Position numbers and translations under genes: made by a program. 33,417 nt of DNA, from positions 1-33,417 of the forward strand of contig CANQCR010000014.1 in assembly GCA_947589735.1 (NCBI GenBank), given 5' to 3'. The stretch is from an uncultured Bacilli bacterium (lineage in GTDB: Bacteria > Bacillota_I > Bacilli_A > RF39 > UBA660). Of the stretch, positions 3,101-33,335 are shown in pieces. The notes beneath the pieces are model-generated. The model saw only the letters and a program-made list of their open reading frames with translations, had not been told where the DNA came from and searched no databases. Each line of letters opens with the position of its first letter. Position 1 is the first letter of the stretch.

Positions 3101-6100
3101 GAAGCTACTGATCGCATTGGAAAAATAATTACAACCATTGAAAAGTTAGAGAAATGGCATGGTCACTTATATAATTGGTATAATGTCAGTACTTTAAAGA
3201 AAATGTATCCATCGACGGTATCAACCGTTGATAGTGGTAATTTTATTGCCTCTCTTATGGTTACCGAATCATTTGTTAAAAGATATGGTAATGCTAATTT
3301 AAGAAATCGGATTGAAAACTTAATTCAACAGACCAATTTTAAATATTTATACAATAAAGATGAAGGTGTCTTTAGCTGTGGTTATGATACATTTAATGAG
3401 CAATTAATAACTTATAATTATAATAAGTTTGCTAGTGAATCAAGACTTACTAGTTTTGTTGCTATCGCTAAAGGTGATATTAAAAAGGAGCACTGGTTCC
3501 TTTTAGATAAAACTTTAACGACTTATCAAGGAAGGAAAGGATTACTTTCATGGACAGGATCAATGTTTGAATACTATATGCCTTTAATATGGCTTCGGAC
3601 ATATCCTAATACGTTGATGGATGAGAGTTATTATTTTGCGCATCACTGTCAAAAAGAATATATGCGGATGTTTGATACCCGTCTTCCTTGGGGCGTTAGT
3701 GAGGCCGCTTATAACTTACTTGATAATTCCCAAAATTATAAGTATAAAGCTTTTGGGGTACCACATTTACGCTTCCATGATAATCATGAAGAGCGTCTAG
3801 TTCTTTCCCCTTACAGCTCTATTTTATCTTTACCTTTATTTCCAAAGGATGTTTACATTAATTTAAAGAAATATCAGAAATTAAATATGTATGGGGAATA
3901 TGGCTTTTTAGAGTCATATGATTATAGTGATGAAACTCCGGTATTCTCTTATTTTGCCCATCATCAAGGTATGATTTTAGCATCCTTAACGAACTATTTA
4001 GCTGGTAACGCTATTCAAAATTATTTCTATGATGACATTAGAGTTCAAGCTATTGATGTCTTAAATAAAGAAAAAGTTCAGATTGAACCAATGATTGACC
4101 TCAAAATTGCTCGTCTTAAAAAGTACGACTATGATAAAGAAATTATTGAAAATGATATTCGGGAATATGACCATTTATCAATGCGTCCGGAAGTATCCGT
4201 TTTATCTAATGCCAGATATTCGGTTTTACTAAATGACAGAGGTGGCGGCTTTAGTAGGTATAAAACGATTCAATTAAATCGTTATCGCAAGATTACGGAA
4301 CAAGACTATGGTAATTTCTTATATATTCGGGATTTGAAAACTAATAAAGTATGGAGTAATACTTATAGTCCTACGAATATTAAACCTGATCGGTATCATG
4401 TCGTATTTGCTTTAGATCGTATCCGTTATATGCGGGTTGATGGTGAGATTGTTACCGATACTGAGATTATTGTTACCAAAAGACATAACGCTGAAATTCG
4501 TAAAATTACCTTTAAAAATGTTGGTGTTAGTCCAAAACAAATCGAACTAACGAGTTATACAGAGCCTATTTTATCAGAAAATGAAGCTGATATTAGCCAT
4601 CGGGTTTTCAATAATATGTTTATTAAATCATTATTTGATGAAGATACGAAATCCCTTGTCTTATATAGGAGATTACGTGGCACTAACGATAAATATTATA
4701 TGATGAGTAAACTTTTTATCGATGAGCCATTAACAAATTATACCTATGATACGGAACGGAGCCATTTTGTTGATAAAATGGGTGGTTACCAGTGCCCTAT
4801 GGGGTTATTCAAACCTTTAACGAACTATGCTGGTGAGAATCTAGATCCAATTAGTAGTATTCGAAATATCATTGATTTACCACCGATGAAAGACGTTACT
4901 ATCTATATGATTACCGGCTTTGGACGGTCATTAGAACAAGTTTTAGCGATTGCAAGTAGTTATGCGACAGAACTTGCTATTGAAGAAGCTTTTGAACTTG
5001 CGACAATAACAACGAACAATGATGTTAAAAAGTTAGGTGTTAGGGGAGCTGATGTTCACCTATATAATAAGATGTTAAACTACTTATATCAAACAAGCCG
5101 TATCAATTTAAGCGATCATCGTAAGAAACTTCTTATGAATAATAATTTAGGTCAAGATACTTTGTGGAAGTTTGGTATTAGCGGTGAAAGACCAATCATC
5201 TTAGTTGAGATGAGTGATATAAGTTCGGCGTCTTTCGTCTATGAAGTTCTTAAAGCCTTTGAGTATTATAAAAGTAAAAGTATTTTTGCCGACTTAGTTA
5301 TTATTAATAGTTATGAAGAAAAAACAGCAAAAATGATTTCAAAACTGGTTGATGATGAACTATATCGTATCTATACGGTTAATAATTTTGCTAATACACC
5401 CGGACGCGTAGTCTTAATTAATTATGATAAATTAACACCGGAAGAATTAAATCTCTTTAGAAGTATCGCTAGATTATCATTTAATACTATCTATAATAAT
5501 TCATTAAGAGAACAAATTGATTTACTTCAAAAAGAAAATCAAATTAATGATTATCATGAAAGAGAATATCTAATTAGTGATTCTATTCCTGATGATAATC
5601 TCCTTTTCAATAATGAATATGGTGGATTTACTACTGATGGCAGGGAGTATCACATTACTAATCCGAATACCCCAATGCCTTGGTCTAATGTTTTAACTAA
5701 TGGTCAGTTTGGAACAATTATTACAAACAATAATAATGGTTTCACTTATGCTTATAATAGTCATGAATATAAGATTACATCTTGGACTAATGATACTATC
5801 TTAGATGATAAATCTGAAGGTATAACTATTAACGATAAATATTTGAAGTGGCGTAATGCCATTCACGGTATCGGTTATAGTAAATTTAAATTTAAAAATG
5901 CTGACTATAGAATTGATGGGACATACTTTGTTCCAATGGATGCGAATGTTAAAGTGGCATATTTTACGTTAACTAATTTATCTGGTATAGTTCAAGAGTT
6001 AGATATCAGGTATTGGATTAATCCCGTTTTAGGTGGGACAGAAGAGAAGACAGCTCGTCACTTAGTATGCAATTACTATGAGCTTAATAAGTTTTTAACG

Positions 6101-7911: not shown

Positions 7912-9744
7912 ATGCGCATTAATAAGTTAACATTATTAGATGATGAAATGTTGACCAAGTTAGGTTGGACGGAAAATCCCGATTTAGCTTCCATAATAGC
8001 ATCGGATTTAGCTCGTCTTCAAGGAGTCTCTTCTTCTTCAAATGGTCTTTGTAACTATTGGATTAATAAATTAGGCAACACCGGAAAAAGAAAGACTGTT
8101 GGCTACATTAATTTCACAGGAGAACAAGGGTGGACAACCTCTATTACTAGTCGTATGGGTGTTCGTTTTGTGGCTTCATTTGATGATATTGATGACTTTG
8201 ATCCCGAACATCTTGATGATTTGACCCTTGATTATCCTATTAAAGCTATTACAAAAAATGTTAGTGAAGTTATTACCCAATTATTTTTAGAAAAAAGTAA
8301 GTTACTTATTAAAACGGGTCGTAAGTATTTAATTGACAATCATGAGTTTGAAGAGTATGAAGCGATGGGAATTAGATTTATCAATTATTGTGAAGCTGCT
8401 AAAGATGACATCATAACTATGGATGGTACTAAAATATCTAAAAATGATCATGTTTATTTAGAAGTTGTACCGGTCCCACTATCTTACGATTTTAATGCCC
8501 GACTTGTTTATTGTTCCATTGTTCCTTATTTTGGTGAATGGAATTCGCATTTTGGGCCTTTAAGTAGTAGTGATTTGTTAAAAAAATTAAATAATCAATT
8601 TCTAAAGAGTGCTTCAGATGAATTAGAACATCAAGAAAGAACTCTTGCTTATCCAACGAAGGCTATTACCAAGAATCGTTACAATTTTAAGTACGAACCC
8701 CTAAGTGAAGAAGATATTATTCAGATATGTATTAAAAGTGATATTCCTGTTTTTGTTCATGGTAAGACTGGTTGTGGTAAGACTGAACGTATTTTAGCTT
8801 TAGATCCTGATTTAGAGCTAGTTGATTTTGGATGTACTTCAAGTGATGGTTTTACTGGTATCATAGCGAAAGACTTTAAAACGCAAAAATTATGTTTATA
8901 TGAACCCCATTGGTATAAAAGCTTATGTGATAAAAGCCTTGAAAAACCTGATTTTATCCATATCCTATTTTTAGAAGAACTTACTAATGCTTCTAAGGAT
9001 ACACAAAAAGTAGCCTTTGAAGTAACCCTTAATAAGACTTTAACAAATGGTGGTTTTCATCTTGTCTTACCAGATAATTGTGTTGTTGTTGCAGCTGGCA
9101 ATGAGGCAAGTGAATCTCGTTCGGCAACAGCTTTGAGCGAACCATTATTTGGTCGCTATGCTCATGTTTATATTGAAACGAACGCGGAAAATTGGTTAAA
9201 TTGGGCGTCTAAAAATCATAGTGAAAAAAGACATTTACAATATAATCCCGTTGATAAAACAAGACCTATTCATCCAGCTATAGTTGATTTTATTAGGATT
9301 AATGGCGATCAAGTTTTAAGAACAAATTATGATGGTCAAGTTCCCAATGCTGATCCTCGTAAATGGGCTTTAGCGTCACGAGCTTTGTATGAATGTGGCA
9401 ATCCTAATGTTTTGCGTGCCTTTATTGGCCCAAGTCTTACGGCTAGTTTTATTGCTTTTACACAATTAGAATTATTAACGGTTGAAGATGTTCTTAAAGA
9501 TCGAGTTAAGCCATCAGATGTTCCAACAGAAATATCAATTCGTTGGAATTCTGTCTTCTCATTGTTAAATGTTTCCTTTGATGATGTCGATAAAGTACGG
9601 ACTTTTATTAAAGAACTTGGTTCAGAATATTTGGCTGTTTTTGATTATTATTGGTCTAAGGGTGATAATGAACGTATTTTAAAACTATATAATGATAATA
9701 ATGCTTCAGAACAAGTAGCAGTTAAGAAATTAGGTACATTATGA
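7912..9744 (+). CDS. MoxR-type AAA+ ATPase with long N-terminal extension (610 aa)
   Basis: The C-terminal half is a AAA+ module: Walker A GKTGCGKT at 284-291, Walker B-like ILFLEE near 352, and a sensor-1-like VVVAAGNEA segment. Such ATPases act with VWA proteins as chaperone-like remodelling machines. The first roughly 270 residues are not AAA+. They contain LDYPIKAITKN near 105 and LAYPTKAITKN near 246, suggesting a duplicated unit. Parts (MGVRFVAS, LEVVPVPLSYD) weakly recall DUF6273-like domains of Bacillota, a resemblance from memory only. The start at 7912 is chosen because GGGGTGGAG lies just upstream. The stop overlaps the next ATG (ATGA), so the partner is probably translationally coupled. 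Target unknown. Confidence 0.85.
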   Translation: MRINKLTLLDDEMLTKLGWTENPDLASIIASDLARLQGVSSSSNGLCNYWINKLGNTGKRKTVGYINFTGEQGWTTSITSRMGVRFVASFDDIDDFDPEHLDDLTLDYPIKAITKNVSEVITQLFLEKSKLLIKTGRKYLIDNHEFEEYEAMGIRFINYCEAAKDDIITMDGTKISKNDHVYLEVVPVPLSYDFNARLVYCSIVPYFGEWNSHFGPLSSSDLLKKLNNQFLKSASDELEHQERTLAYPTKAITKNRYNFKYEPLSEEDIIQICIKSDIPVFVHGKTGCGKTERILALDPDLELVDFGCTSSDGFTGIIAKDFKTQKLCLYEPHWYKSLCDKSLEKPDFIHILFLEELTNASKDTQKVAFEVTLNKTLTNGGFHLVLPDNCVVVAAGNEASESRSATALSEPLFGRYAHVYIETNAENWLNWASKNHSEKRHLQYNPVDKTRPIHPAIVDFIRINGDQVLRTNYDGQVPNADPRKWALASRALYECGNPNVLRAFIGPSLTASFIAFTQLELLTVEDVLKDRVKPSDVPTEISIRWNSVFSLLNVSFDDVDKVRTFIKELGSEYLAVFDYYWSKGDNERILKLYNDNNASEQVAVKKLGTL

Positions 9745-28765: not shown

Positions 28766-30922
28766 ATGAACGATAATATTATTGAACAAATTAGTAAAGA
28801 TCTAAATGTTTCAGTAAAACAAGTATCGGCGACATTAAAATTATTAGAGGATGGTAATACCATCCCTTTTATTGCGCGTTACCGTAAAGAAGTTACTGGC
28901 AATTTAGATGAAGAAATTATTAAAGCAATTGGTGAAGTATATACCTATCAGGTTAATCTTTTGAAAAGGAAAGAAGATGTTATTCGCTTAATTGATGAAA
29001 AAGGTCTTCTTACGGATGAATTAAAAGATGCTATTATGGCAGCGACGAAATTAGTAGAAGTAGAAGATTTATATCGTCCTTATAAAGAAAAGAAAAAGAC
29101 AAAAGCGACAGAAGCCATTAAAAATGGTTTGGAGCCTTTAGCGAAAATGATTATGGCTTGTCCTTTAAATGGTAATATATCTGATATGGCTAAGAAGTTT
29201 TTAACCGAAAACGTTAAAACCGAAGAAGATGCCATTATGGGCGCTAAATACATTATTGCCGAATGGATTAGTGATAATGCTTATTTTCGTAAATATATTA
29301 GAAGTAATATGTATCGCTTTGGTATCTTATCATCAAAATTAAAAAAAGATGTTCAAGATAATGATAAAATATATGAGATGTATTATGATTATCAAGAAGC
29401 GGTATCAAAGATTAAACCGCATCGTATTTTAGCTGTTAATAGAGGCGAAAAAGAAGATGTTTTAAGCGTTAGTATCGATGTTGATAAAGATAAAATGCTT
29501 AGCTTTTTAGAAAGTAAAAATATTAAAAATCAAGATAGTTTTTGTGCGCCATATATTAAGGAAGCTATTTTAGATAGCTATAAGCGTTTAATTTTTCCTT
29601 CGGTTGAAAGAGAAATTAGAAGTGATTTAACCGAAAAAGGGGAAGAGGCTGCTATTAATAATTTTGGTAAAAACTTAGAAAGCCTTCTTTTAACCCCACC
29701 GATGAAAGAAAAAGTTGTCTTGGCTTTTGATCCAGGATATGTCAATGGTTGTAAGTTAGCCGTTATCGATAAAACCGGTAAATACTTAGATTCGACCGTT
29801 ATTAAACCATTTTTAAATGGTAATACAGATGAACGTATTAAAGCTGCTAAAAAGATTGTGTTAGACCTTATTAATAAGCATCATGTCGATATTATTGCGA
29901 TTGGTAATGGAACGGCCTCAAGAGAGTCTGAAAAGTTTTGTGCAGAATTAATTAAAGAGAACAATTTAACTTGCAAGTATGTTATTGTTTCGGAAGCTGG
30001 GGCATCTATTTATAGTGCCTCTGATATTGCTATTGAAGAGTTTCCTGATTTAGCTGTCGAAAAAAGAAGTGCGGTATCGATTGGTAGACGTCTTCAAGAT
30101 CCATTATCTGAATTAGTTAAGGTCCCACCATCAGGCATTGGGGTCGGTTTGTATCAACACGACGTTAGCCCTAAAAAGTTATCCGATAGTCTTGACTTTG
30201 TTGTATCTAAAGCTGTTAATAGTGTCGGTGTTAATATCAATACGGCCAGTCCATCTCTTCTTAAATATGTATCAGGTATCAATAAGAAAAATATTGATAA
30301 GATTATGGCTTATCGTAATAGTGTCGGAAGGATTAACTCTAGAGAAGAAATTAAAAAGAAAAAACTTCTTACTGATAAAACTTATGAACAAGCGATTGGT
30401 TTCTTAAGAATTACCGAAGGCGAGAATATTTTAGATGCAACGGCTATCCACCCAGAAAGCTACGATATGGCTCTAAAACTATTAAAGGAGTTAGATTGCA
30501 ATCTAACGGATGTTGGGTCTGATAAATTAATTGATAAATTAAAAAATATTGAAGCTAAAGACTATGCTTCCAAATTAGGTACCGATATATATACTTTAGA
30601 AGATGTTATTGCTTCATTAATGAAACCTAACCGGGATCCTCGTGACGAAATGCCGCAACCAATATTAAAAAGTGATGTTTTAGATATTGCCGATTTAAAA
30701 GTAGGTATGAAATTGCAAGGAACAGTTCGAAATGTTGTCGATTTCGGAGCTTTTATCGATATTGGCTTACATAATGATGGCTTGGTTCATATATCAAAAA
30801 TATCTAAAGATTATGTTCGTCATCCATCTGATGTATTAAGTGTTGGTGATATCGTCGATTGTTATGTTGATGAAATATTTAAAGATAAAGGTAAGGTATC
30901 TTTATCTCTTATAGAAAAATAA
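28766..30922 (+). CDS. tex: Tex-family transcription accessory protein (718 aa)
   Basis: A cytoplasmic nucleic-acid-binding protein of the Tex/YhgF family. The N-terminus has TIPFIARYRKEVTG, followed by a YqgF-like RNase H-fold core (AFDPGYVNGCKLAVID), helix-hairpin-helix segments (NINTASPSLLKYVSGI, NKKNIDKIMAYR) and a C-terminal S1 RNA-binding domain from about residue 640 (VGMKLQGTVRNVVDFGAFIDIG ending VSLSLIEK). Length is normal for the family. It affects transcription and RNA turnover in other bacteria. GAGGAAT precedes the ATG, 7 nt after the upstream stop, so the two are cotranscribed. Confidence 0.95.
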   Translation: MNDNIIEQISKDLNVSVKQVSATLKLLEDGNTIPFIARYRKEVTGNLDEEIIKAIGEVYTYQVNLLKRKEDVIRLIDEKGLLTDELKDAIMAATKLVEVEDLYRPYKEKKKTKATEAIKNGLEPLAKMIMACPLNGNISDMAKKFLTENVKTEEDAIMGAKYIIAEWISDNAYFRKYIRSNMYRFGILSSKLKKDVQDNDKIYEMYYDYQEAVSKIKPHRILAVNRGEKEDVLSVSIDVDKDKMLSFLESKNIKNQDSFCAPYIKEAILDSYKRLIFPSVEREIRSDLTEKGEEAAINNFGKNLESLLLTPPMKEKVVLAFDPGYVNGCKLAVIDKTGKYLDSTVIKPFLNGNTDERIKAAKKIVLDLINKHHVDIIAIGNGTASRESEKFCAELIKENNLTCKYVIVSEAGASIYSASDIAIEEFPDLAVEKRSAVSIGRRLQDPLSELVKVPPSGIGVGLYQHDVSPKKLSDSLDFVVSKAVNSVGVNINTASPSLLKYVSGINKKNIDKIMAYRNSVGRINSREEIKKKKLLTDKTYEQAIGFLRITEGENILDATAIHPESYDMALKLLKELDCNLTDVGSDKLIDKLKNIEAKDYASKLGTDIYTLEDVIASLMKPNRDPRDEMPQPILKSDVLDIADLKVGMKLQGTVRNVVDFGAFIDIGLHNDGLVHISKISKDYVRHPSDVLSVGDIVDCYVDEIFKDKGKVSLSLIEK

Positions 30923-30979: not shown

Positions 30980-31772
30980 AATTTAAAGAATAAACTCTGT
31001 TATTATTAAAAACAATTTTATCATTAGTAATATATTTAATATCTTGAAGATGTTTTGTAAGCTTTTCTTCTTTCTTTATATCGATTATTTCTACATATTC
31101 ACACTTTATATCTTCATATTTTTCACATTGTTCTTTATTAGTTGCTTCCTTTTTTTGCTTTAAACTATAAAATGCTTTATTAGTTTTTAAATAATATTTA
31201 TTGCCACTACTTAAATAAATGCTTATAATATTTTCTTCACTAGGTATAGGATTGTCTTCTACCAGTGTCCCATTTTTTTCGTAATTATCATAATAATCGT
31301 CGCTATTAACCAAAAATTTAGTAATGTATATTTTATTTTCATTATCTACATATACAATTCCATTTTTAAGTTTAAAGTCATAATTAAATGTACTTTTTAA
31401 ATCTAGACTTCCTTTTCCACTTGAATTATCTTTATCATAATAGCCCCTGTTTTCTTTATTATCATAAAGGGCATAAATTTCAAAATCTTCGTATTGAATT
31501 CCAATAAGATTAGATACGCCTTCTACTTGTTTATAATTCGTATCATTAGAATATAATTTATCAAAACTGACATTATAAAAATTGTTATCTGTAACTACCA
31601 AGTTATTTTGTGTCAAAATAACATTTTCATTTTCAAGACCATTTATAGTGTTAATGTAAGTAAAATCTTCTTTAGTATCTTTCTTTTCAGCCTTATTTTC
31701 TTTATTCCCACAACCACATATACTTAATAAAATAATAAGACTTAACATAAATAAACTGCTTTTCTTTAACAT
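30978..31772 (-). CDS. Lipoprotein of unknown function (264 aa)
   Basis: The signal peptide MLKKSSLFMLSLIILLSICGCG has Cys at the end of its hydrophobic core (ICGC), predicting a lipid anchor, followed by a Lys/Asp/Glu-rich spacer. The rest is Asn-, Tyr- and Lys-rich with short repeated beta-like phrases (NGIVYVDNENKIYITKF, SSGNKYYLKTNKAFYSL), which could be a small propeller or beta-repeat domain. CEKYEDIKC could be a disulfide loop. No family is recognised. GAGTGATGG precedes the ATG on the minus strand. It is the only minus-strand gene in the window and its terminator meets that of tex. Confidence 0.8.
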   Translation of the reverse strand: MLKKSSLFMLSLIILLSICGCGNKENKAEKKDTKEDFTYINTINGLENENVILTQNNLVVTDNNFYNVSFDKLYSNDTNYKQVEGVSNLIGIQYEDFEIYALYDNKENRGYYDKDNSSGKGSLDLKSTFNYDFKLKNGIVYVDNENKIYITKFLVNSDDYYDNYEKNGTLVEDNPIPSEENIISIYLSSGNKYYLKTNKAFYSLKQKKEATNKEQCEKYEDIKCEYVEIIDIKKEEKLTKHLQDIKYITNDKIVFNNNRVYSLN

Positions 31773-31798
31773 ACCATCACTCGTTTTCTAACATACTT

Positions 31799-31807
31799 AT
31801 TATAACA
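31799..31807 (-). promoter_or_regulatory. Extended -10 promoter of the minus-strand lipoprotein gene
   Basis: Minus-strand TGTTATAAT with predicted start near 31792, giving a leader of about 19 nt. It is downstream of the terminator of the small RNA described next, so the gene does not need read-through from it. Confidence 0.6.
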
Positions 31808-31839
31808 TCTTTTCATTAAATATCTTATATATTATACAC

Positions 31840-31936
31840 AAAAAAGACGTTGCCCCCTGAGCAACGTCCATAAAAGAATAAAAAGGGGTTGGCTAGTGTG
31901 ATACTAGCTCCAATCCGGCATTTCCGAATTGGTACC
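31840..31936 (-). ncRNA. Putative structured small RNA or leader with two terminator-like hairpins
   Basis: On the minus strand a strong promoter points into about 97 nt holding three hairpins. Hairpin 1: 9-bp stem 31932-31924 with 31918-31910 (one U-G pair), loop AAAUG. Hairpin 2: GCUAGU/ACUAGC (31908-31903 with 31897-31892), loop AUCAC, followed by CCCC and a U-rich run. Hairpin 3: perfect 8-bp GACGUUGC/GCAACGUC (31868-31861 with 31853-31846) and six U, an intrinsic terminator. The 3' arm of hairpin 1 (CCGGAUUGG) can instead extend hairpin 2 by pairing with CAACCC, so the two may be alternatives. I see no match to tRNA, SRP, 6S or a riboswitch class I know. Confidence 0.6.
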
Positions 31937-31940
31937 TCAT

Positions 31941-31969
31941 ATACTAATCCAAAAAGATGTTAATGTCAA
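31941..31969 (-). promoter_or_regulatory. Promoter of the putative small RNA
   Basis: On the minus strand TTGACA (31969-31964), exactly 17 nt, then TAGTAT (31946-31941). It has the only perfect consensus -35 I noted in the window. The predicted start is near 31936-31934, at the first G residues of the structured stretch. Confidence 0.7.
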
Positions 31970-32014
31970 GCATTTTTTTAAAAAAAATGAAATTTATTTA
32001 ATAATCCTAAAATG

Positions 32015-32023
32015 TGTTATAAT
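32015..32023 (+). promoter_or_regulatory. Extended -10 promoter of the first tandem lipoprotein gene
   Basis: TGTTATAAT, with a second candidate, TGGCATAAT, at 32027-32035. Predicted starts near 32030 or 32042, leaving leaders of about 19 or 7 nt before the ATG at 32049. Confidence 0.55.
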
Positions 32024-32048
32024 ATATGGCATAATTTTAGGGGGAGTT

Positions 32049-32420
32049 ATGCAGCTAAGAAAAATACTTATGATACTAATACTTATATTATGTACTAGTT
32101 GTAAAACAAAAAATAAAGAGGTCATGTGCCGGTATGTCGATATGGAGGATAATCAAAAAGCATATTTAAATATAACTTTTACATATGATAATAATAAGTT
32201 AAAAGAAAAACTTCATGCTAAATATAAATATGAAAGTATCGAAAAGGCTAATGAAAATTATCCCGAGGTCGAAAAAATACTGAGCGAAGAAGAAACCATT
32301 AAAGTTCATCAAGAAGATGATGCGATAATTGCTGAAGGCGAAAAACTTGATGATGTCTCTAAAGATGAATATGCATCTAAAATCGCATATTATGAAGAAT
32401 TAGGGTATACTTGTAAATAG
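32049..32420 (+). CDS. Small lipoprotein, first of three GYxC paralogues (123 aa)
   Basis: The signal peptide ends CTSC (Cys18), a somewhat atypical lipobox with Cys at -3. The mature part has one Cys near its start (VMCRYVD) and one at the C-terminus (ELGYTCK), likely a disulfide joining both ends. The middle is Lys/Glu-rich with a beta-like ITFTYDNNKL segment and a helical stretch. Family unknown; the next two proteins share the same layout. AGGGGGAG lies before the ATG at 32049; the open frame extends upstream to 31929 but that stretch precedes the promoter, so the later start is used. Confidence 0.78.
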   Translation: MQLRKILMILILILCTSCKTKNKEVMCRYVDMEDNQKAYLNITFTYDNNKLKEKLHAKYKYESIEKANENYPEVEKILSEEETIKVHQEDDAIIAEGEKLDDVSKDEYASKIAYYEELGYTCK

Positions 32421-32426
32421 GTATTA

Positions 32427-32435
32427 TGATATAAT
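32427..32435 (+). promoter_or_regulatory. Extended -10 promoter of the second tandem lipoprotein gene
   Basis: TGATATAAT, predicted start near 32442, leader about 14 nt with GGAGGA. No terminator separates it from the previous gene, so read-through is also possible. Confidence 0.55.
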
Positions 32436-32455
32436 TTAATAAGAATGGAGGACAT

Positions 32456-32824
32456 ATGAAGAAGACATTATTATTAGGTGTGGTTGCCATAACATTAGTT
32501 TTAGTAACCGGTTGTGGTAAAGAAGAACATATGACTTGTACAAAAAACCATACTATTACAGGTGTGGAAATCATCAATACGACGGAGTTTACGTTTAAAG
32601 ATGATTATGTTAGTAAAAAACATGTAACAATGGATTCAACTTTTGCTGATGAAGAAGCGGCTGAAGCTTTTGTTAAGAATTATGAAGATCAAGAAAAATA
32701 TACTGTTAAAAGAGATGGCAAAAAGGTATCTATTTCTTATTTAGAAAGTGCTGAAAAGACAGATATCAATAAAAAAGACACTGTTTTAGAGGCTATGGAT
32801 GCTCAGGGATATAAATGCAAATAA
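32456..32824 (+). CDS. Small lipoprotein, second of three GYxC paralogues (122 aa)
   Basis: A canonical signal peptide with lipobox LVTGC precedes a mature protein of about 100 residues. It carries Cys near the start (HMTCTK) and at the end (AQGYKCK), a beta-like EFTFKDDYVSKKHVTMD segment, an acidic helix (ADEEAAEAFVKNYED) and KVSISYLES. This alternation matches the flanking paralogues and suggests a compact alpha/beta domain closed by one disulfide. GGAGG lies 5-7 nt before the ATG. Function unknown. It has its own promoter and a terminator after the stop. Confidence 0.82.
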   Translation: MKKTLLLGVVAITLVLVTGCGKEEHMTCTKNHTITGVEIINTTEFTFKDDYVSKKHVTMDSTFADEEAAEAFVKNYEDQEKYTVKRDGKKVSISYLESAEKTDINKKDTVLEAMDAQGYKCK

Positions 32825-32847
32825 AATTGGCATATGCCGATTTTTTT
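32824..32847 (+). terminator. Intrinsic terminator
   Basis: An 8-bp stem, AAATTGGC/GCCGATTT (one T-G wobble), with an ATAT loop and a T tract. It begins in the last base of the TAA stop. Confidence 0.8.
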
Positions 32848-32855
32848 GTTATAAT
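32847..32855 (+). promoter_or_regulatory. Extended -10 promoter merged with a terminator T tract
   Basis: TGTTATAAT, whose first T is the last T of the terminator. The predicted start near 32862 coincides with the GAGGT ribosome site, a leader of about 12 nt. Confidence 0.65.
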
Positions 32856-32873
32856 GATAACGAGGTAGATAGA

Positions 32874-33335
32874 ATGAAGAAATTATGCTTAATACTCATA
32901 TTATTGTGTTTTATTAGTGGTTGTAAAAAAGAAGAAAAAGAAGAGACAAAGGTTTTAGCGACCGGAGAACTTGTCTGTGCTTATAAAGAGAATCGCATCA
33001 AAGAAGATACATTATATACTAGTTTATATCAATATAATTTTAATGATAATGGCGTCTTAGAGGAACTTATCGATGCCGAGCGAATTGAGTTTGTAGGAAC
33101 TGATGAAGAGATTAAAGAAAAATATTTAGAAACAGTTGATGAAACACTTAAAAAATATGAGAATATTGATGGTGTGACAGCTACGAAGGAAATTGAAGAT
33201 GATAAGTGCACAATCCTTATTAAAATTGATCCTAAAAAGTTAAAAGATGAATTAAAAGAAGATTATATGGTTAATTATGACCGCGTTAATACCTATAAAT
33301 TATTTACGGATATGGGTTATACATGTGAACAGTAA
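32874..33335 (+). CDS. Small lipoprotein, third of three GYxC paralogues (153 aa)
   Basis: The signal peptide LCLILILLCFISGC predicts lipid attachment. The mature protein is rich in Glu and Lys, with an early Cys (ELVCAYKE), an internal Cys (DDKCTIL) and the C-terminal motif MGYTCEQ. YQYNFNDNGVLEEL and the following helix mirror the beta/helix order of the two upstream paralogues. It is about 30 residues longer. GAGGT precedes the ATG at 32874; upstream in-frame codons back to 32799 overlap the previous gene, its terminator and the promoter, and are rejected. Function unknown. Confidence 0.8.
   Translation: MKKLCLILILLCFISGCKKEEKEETKVLATGELVCAYKENRIKEDTLYTSLYQYNFNDNGVLEELIDAERIEFVGTDEEIKEKYLETVDETLKKYENIDGVTATKEIEDDKCTILIKIDPKKLKDELKEDYMVNYDRVNTYKLFTDMGYTCEQ

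Follow-up and report, generated by a model that had tools for sequence, protein, structure and literature searches.

The minus strand of the window, that is, of the whole analyzed stretch of 33,417 nt, contains a gene for a structured RNA that stands alone, is conserved and belongs to no Rfam family. As far as tested, it is restricted to one family of gut-type Bacilli, that of the host, probably the RF39/UBA660-type lineage. We consider it probable that the gene encodes a trans-acting, Hfq-independent C-rich antisense small RNA (sRNA) and represents a new family of small regulatory RNA. The gene spans approximately positions 31933–31840. Its promoter, the two hairpins with the C/U-rich single strand that follows them, and the terminator hairpin are all present at the following places.

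31969–31964, minus strand: –35 element TTGACA (sequence; promoter scan)
31946–31941, minus strand: –10 element TAGTAT, 17-nt spacer after the –35 element (sequence; promoter scan)
31933–31840, minus strand: predicted sRNA transcript of ~94 nt (start from the distance to the –10 element, end from the terminator)
31932–31910, minus strand: hairpin 1, CCAATTCGG...CCGGATTGG, at the extreme 5′ end of the RNA (two-sided changes)
31908–31892, minus strand: hairpin 2, GCTAGT-ATCAC-ACTAGC (stem almost invariant)
31891–31871, minus strand: C/U-rich single strand CAACCCCUUUUUAUUCUUUUA, the proposed pairing (seed) region (predicted unpaired; conserved)
31908–31873, minus strand: highly conserved 36-nt core GCTAGTATCACACTAGCCAACCCCTTTTTATTCTTT (comparison of 178 segments)
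31868–31846, minus strand: terminator hairpin GACGTTGC-TCAGGGG-GCAACGTC (terminator scan)
31858–31854, minus strand: AGGGG in the terminator loop, complement of CCCCU at 31888–31884 (recurrence in relatives)
31845–31840, minus strand: terminator T-run (sequence)

The same unit, consisting of TTGACA-17 nt-TA[G/T]TAT, a 5′ hairpin, hairpin 2, CAACCCCUUUUUAUUCUUU and a terminator, recurs in a set of 178 non-redundant segments, which includes a few partial, non-gene copies, at least three of them (L032–L034) being phage and target-site copies. The promoter match alone is uninformative, with 15 promoter-like sites found by the scan and 13.2 expected. The TTGACA/17 nt/TAGTAT promoter pointed out in the first-pass annotation is indeed present, and the same promoter and spacing are observed family-wide. 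Among the 174 loci with such a promoter layout, the –35 element is TTGACA in 155 and TTGACT in 15, and the –10 element is TAGTAT in 91, TATTAT in 33, TAGGAT in 16 and TAATAT in 16. The gap from the end of the –10 element to hairpin 1 (its CCA) is 8 nt in 147 of these loci, and from this fixed distance we infer that the 5′ end of the RNA lies at, or just before, hairpin 1. The first base is then probably near 31933, hence a length of ~94 nt, so that the small RNA of about 97 nt proposed earlier is retained with a corrected length. Judging by its sequence, the promoter is of the strong sigma-A type and is the sRNA's own. A small open reading frame within the RNA has been considered and rejected, as relatives, compared by eye, do not retain the ATG that the window copy has at 31940.

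The 105-nt stretch has a folding energy of –36.3 kcal/mol, compared to –24.1 ± 3.2 kcal/mol for shuffled sequences (z = –3.8), with one shuffle out of 200 being at least as good. Site 31868–31846 is the only terminator-like one detected by the scan within 31000–32800. The strict terminator rule is satisfied in 157 of the 178 segments, and in several failing segments that were inspected the hairpin is still there, followed by a less pronounced T-run. Three stems with two U-rich exits had been described initially; the stems are all there, but the last hairpin is the sole terminator, hairpin 2 not being one because CAACCCC separates it from the first T-run.

With a 116-nt query, almost every genome sampled from the host's family gives a match, and no convincing one is obtained outside the family. 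The 19-nt complement of the core is found in 104 out of 117 genera of the family (one genome per genus), compared to a single match for the control pattern. Scanning of GTDB genomes with the pattern identifies at least 118 stretches with the core, and the record titles among the listed matches are Bacilli, Tenericutes, Mollicutes, Erysipelotrichaceae and Bacillales. The covariance model R1, comprising hairpins 1–2 and the single strand and applied with the E-value cut-off of 0.01, detects the sRNA in 35 of 38 genomes of the family and in none of 258 genomes from other families of the class. Sixteen genomes had given no match with the pattern or with the first DNA search; among these, G070 yields a divergent copy (59 bits), and the others give only noise.

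The family comprises more than 130 genera, and the sRNA is usually present as a single copy per genome. Two tandem duplications are observed, L009 (G002:C1 ~130.9–131.2 kb) and L011 (G009:C1 ~117.0–117.3 kb), with each duplicate having its own promoter and terminator, and in one genome part of the core (AGCTGGTATCACACTAGTCGACCCCTTTT) occurs a second time, outside the sRNA gene (L036, G033:C24:5465–5493). Many copies are localized within ~50 bases of a contig end (L078, L088, L094, L098, L110, L113, L119 and others). A core common to many species probably breaks metagenome assembly, and since so many copies sit at contig ends, some of the absences are probably assembly losses.

The 36-nt core is exact in 136 of the 178 segments; in 28 the final C of the stem is replaced by T, and two have the A..T form. 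CCCCTTTTTATTCTTT is present in 174 segments. The single strand at 31891–31871 is predicted to be unpaired with a probability of at least 0.90, and a conserved accessible C-rich strand of this kind is expected of a trans-acting C-rich antisense sRNA.

In the alignment of 49 divergent copies (A2), standard pairs constitute 94.6% of the two hairpins, and two-sided changes are observed at six pairs (13 such cells), five of them in hairpin 1. These covariation values for hairpins 1 and 2 are reached in none of 500 shuffles, and when the partner is slid by 1–3 columns as a control, pairing falls to 1.8–47%. Hairpin 1 covaries, with compensated variants such as CCAATTG/CAATTGG in L007, CCAAATC/GATTTGG in L029, TGCTA/TAGCA in L272, and CCAGCAG/CTGCTGG in L167 (where hairpin 1 is misaligned in A2). 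In hairpin 2 the basal pair alone varies (G-C, G-U, A-U), the remaining stem being fixed in sequence. Compensatory changes, suggested in the first-pass annotation as a check on the stems, are seen at five pairs of hairpin 1 and only at the basal pair of hairpin 2. The copies that diverge most (L273, L275, L279, L371) have an altered hairpin 2 loop and retain the GCTAG stem and CCCCTTTTTATTCTTT, a pattern that would follow from an important role of the pairing strand.

The genomic neighborhood has been surveyed for 114 loci. In 78 of 93 loci the closest upstream open reading frame has the opposite orientation, and so does the closest downstream one in 80 of 105, with many kinds of genes represented. 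Genes that we take to be recG and nifJ from our own reading of the protein sequences are located upstream in 45 loci and directly downstream in 33 loci, respectively, and the other loci differ. As the flanking genes vary and mostly face the other way, the RNA is a stand-alone sRNA rather than a riboswitch or attenuator. Its having a promoter and a terminator of its own is what would be expected of a trans-acting C-rich antisense sRNA, and the earlier suggestion of an unannotated, structured, stand-alone sRNA holds, as it is absent from Rfam and its stems are kept in relatives.

In the window, the neighbors of the sRNA are lipoprotein genes, unlike in the recG/nifJ loci. On the plus strand, three small lipoprotein-like genes without a clear Pfam family follow in a row (31929–33335), divergent from the sRNA, and a gene for a Tex-type S1 protein is located upstream (28766–30922, plus strand).

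The possibility that the RNA is a cis-acting leader, controlling the downstream gene as a riboswitch or attenuator, had also been raised for this locus. A lipoprotein gene does lie on the same strand ~68 nt past the T-run in the window, and the promoter scan finds no promoter for it, contrary to the earlier claim that it has its own. A second pairing can also be drawn, in which the 3′ arm of hairpin 1 extends hairpin 2 by three extra pairs, but these have no two-sided change and are broken or weakened in several variants, so that no conserved mutually exclusive pairings are observed. The conserved element is a terminator, with no anti-terminator. The RNA does not regularly precede any particular kind of co-oriented gene, the downstream gene being neither constant nor usually on its strand, and these varied neighbors exclude a common function as a cis-acting switch for it. 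We regard the leader explanation as largely refuted and give it almost no weight.

Copies of the core are also present in phages. A 37-nt sense copy is located in the G015 prophage (L032/L445, G015:C1:75206–75242), with a regulator gene on one side and the terminase genes on the other; the phage integrase is ~12 kb away. Two IMG/VR contigs have a sense copy as well (L387, ~4312–4334, minus strand; L388, ~8110–8148), directly 3′ of a tRNA-like gene that contains a long insertion (149 nt, 35 bits to RF00005). The phage copies lack the host promoter, hairpin 1 and the terminator, and retain hairpin 2 and the single strand together. A phage attachment site was considered and rejected, as the copy is far from the integrase and not where such a site is expected.

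Occurrence of the core in one prophage and two viral contigs, the tandem copies in two genomes and the numerous copies at contig ends would agree with a mobile or repeat-derived element, e.g., an attachment site or an insertion remnant, spread by phages. We consider this very improbable, as the sRNA is usually a single copy that possesses a promoter and a terminator and in many cases resides in the conserved recG/nifJ neighborhood; the prophage copy is in the interior of the phage, at ~12 kb, and not near the integrase; and the contig ends would be explained by a k-mer common to many species in one metagenome.

The C-run of the single strand and the terminator loop may interact, CCCCU and AGGGG being complementary over five bases. 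AGGGG is found in the terminator of 132 of the 178 segments, with about a quarter of the copies lacking it. When terminators of the same loci are scored by the same rule, 46 of 60 sRNA terminators contain AGGGG, compared to one of 37 other terminators, and this sole case (L274) turns out to be a copy of the sRNA. As CCCC is nearly constant, there is hardly any room for the contact to covary. The pairing of CCCC with the G-rich loop, noticed already in the first-pass annotation, is thus backed by enrichment of AGGGG in the sRNA terminators but not by covariation; it is likely to be a shielding contact, suggestive rather than proven.

Taken together, these features are consistent with the following mode of action. 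Hairpin 1 would protect the 5′ end, and the near-invariant hairpin 2 would display the 21-nt C/U-rich single strand, whose invariant accessible part CAACCCCUUUUUAUUCUUUU resembles the C-rich strands of RsaE, FsrA, LhrC and IsrR. CUAGCCAACCCCUUUUUAUUCUUUU could base-pair with mRNA at purine-rich sites that resemble AAGAAUAAAAAGGGG and Shine-Dalgarno sequences, and this pairing would block translation or alter mRNA stability without Hfq, a protein absent in all 58 genomes of the family that were checked. The AGGGG loop of the terminator would probably shield CCCC until a target competes for it. The phages with a sense copy of the core may imitate the host sRNA or soak up its partners, an attractive idea.

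Among the candidate targets examined, strong sites pairing with the C-rich strand are found in four genera and none is family-wide. In these genera (G013, G019, G073, G092), the core pairs with a site between a gene that we take to be ppdK from our reading of the protein and an HTH-like gene, the HTH match of which is below the Pfam cut-off. The predicted energies are –41 to –51 kcal/mol, and pairing extends over ~26 bases, interrupted in three of the genera by a single mismatch or bulge, plus 6–8 more. The long intergenic complement of the core, located before the HTH-like gene (L266, L311, L312, L313), has its own hairpin GGCTAGTATTAAGTACTAGC, and at three of these four sites a run of T's comes after it. 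It is a possible target or sponge. Most genomes have no second site matching the 19-nt complement with up to two mismatches.

Several other candidates were rejected. Matches in rsmH (mraW) in several genomes are due to the codons for LKRIKRG, and the window's own rsmH is unmatched. Only two prepilin starts (MKNKKGF) match, the remaining prepilin genes being unmatched. In 10 genomes of the genus, genes having a AAAAGGGG Shine-Dalgarno site ahead of their ATG include no ortholog that evidently recurs in the subset examined, and the pairing with nifJ and recG starts is hardly above that with shuffled sequences.

The main rival explanation is a structural or protein-bound RNA, where hairpin 2 and the C/U-rich strand constitute a protein site, for example, for a global RNA-binding protein that the sRNA would sequester or guide, and pairing with mRNA is secondary. 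The 36 invariant bases exceed what a short motif binding Shine-Dalgarno sites needs, and fit a protein-binding RNA equally well. The near-invariance of the core, usually present once per genome, across the family of more than 130 genera argues for this explanation, as does the lack of a complementary target common to the whole family among the candidates examined, and so does the joint retention of hairpin 2 and the single strand in phages. On the other hand, the loop of hairpin 2 changes freely in divergent copies, and long complementary sites exist in four genera. The sRNA is neither the small SRP RNA (RF00169), which is encoded at G000:C5:13041–13130, nor 6S RNA (RF00013), encoded at G000:C1:1197–1382; these being separate genes, it replaces neither of them. 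We regard the protein-bound RNA as a possible, if somewhat unlikely, explanation, and base pairing by an antisense sRNA remains the one that we prefer.

Trans-acting sRNAs usually drift fast. A pairing-type segment unchanged across a family of uncultured, genome-reduced Bacilli suggests that it is tied to something very constant. A bolder proposal, which we find rather doubtful, is that of a near-universal, possibly essential sRNA of the family, with a 36-nt core kept across more than 100 genera in cells lacking Hfq and a self-shielding CCCC/AGGGG switch, the core of which was captured by phages behind a tRNA-like gene for imitation or titration. The RNA would be the first candidate global sRNA regulator of the lineage, none having been found in the literature searched. 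The covariance model is ready for screening of transcriptomes and metatranscriptomes, and a phage carrying a piece of a host sRNA provides a testable case.

As for known RNAs, in the literature search the core is not printed in any bacterial context, and UBA660 and "small RNA" never occur together in one paper. The comparison with Rfam proposed in the initial reading of the locus, done with Rfam 15 for the whole window, yields no family at its gathering score. The best permissive score at the sRNA is that of ncr1241 (RF02451), 22 bits compared to the required 60, and covers the terminator hairpin only. RsaE/RoxS (RF01820) scores 15.1 bits (E = 3.4), far from its gathering score of 79. Still, RsaE/RoxS is similar in being a small Firmicute sRNA with hairpins, a terminator and a single-stranded C-rich region for Shine-Dalgarno sites (PMC4132741, PMC9410917), but differs in sequence and distribution, and has repeated UCCC motifs, compared to one CCCC run here. 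More generally, the C-rich single strands of RsaE, FsrA, LhrC and IsrR bind Shine-Dalgarno regions, and IsrR and LhrC do not need Hfq (PMC4132741, PMC9410917). IsrR from Staphylococcus and FsrA from Bacillus, the latter binding Shine-Dalgarno sites via a C-rich motif (PMC9410917), also have C-rich single strands as pairing regions, but the RNA described here matches no Rfam family and is confined to another bacterial family. In LhrC of Listeria monocytogenes, C/U-rich motifs in single strands and in the terminator loop bind to G-rich sequences upstream of the start codon (PMC4132741), and a C/U-rich single-stranded motif, proposed to be the pairing region here, is common to both RNAs. LhrC, however, has three redundant UCCC motifs and a C-rich terminator loop, whereas the present sRNA, itself without an Rfam match, has one C-run and a G-rich terminator loop complementary to it.
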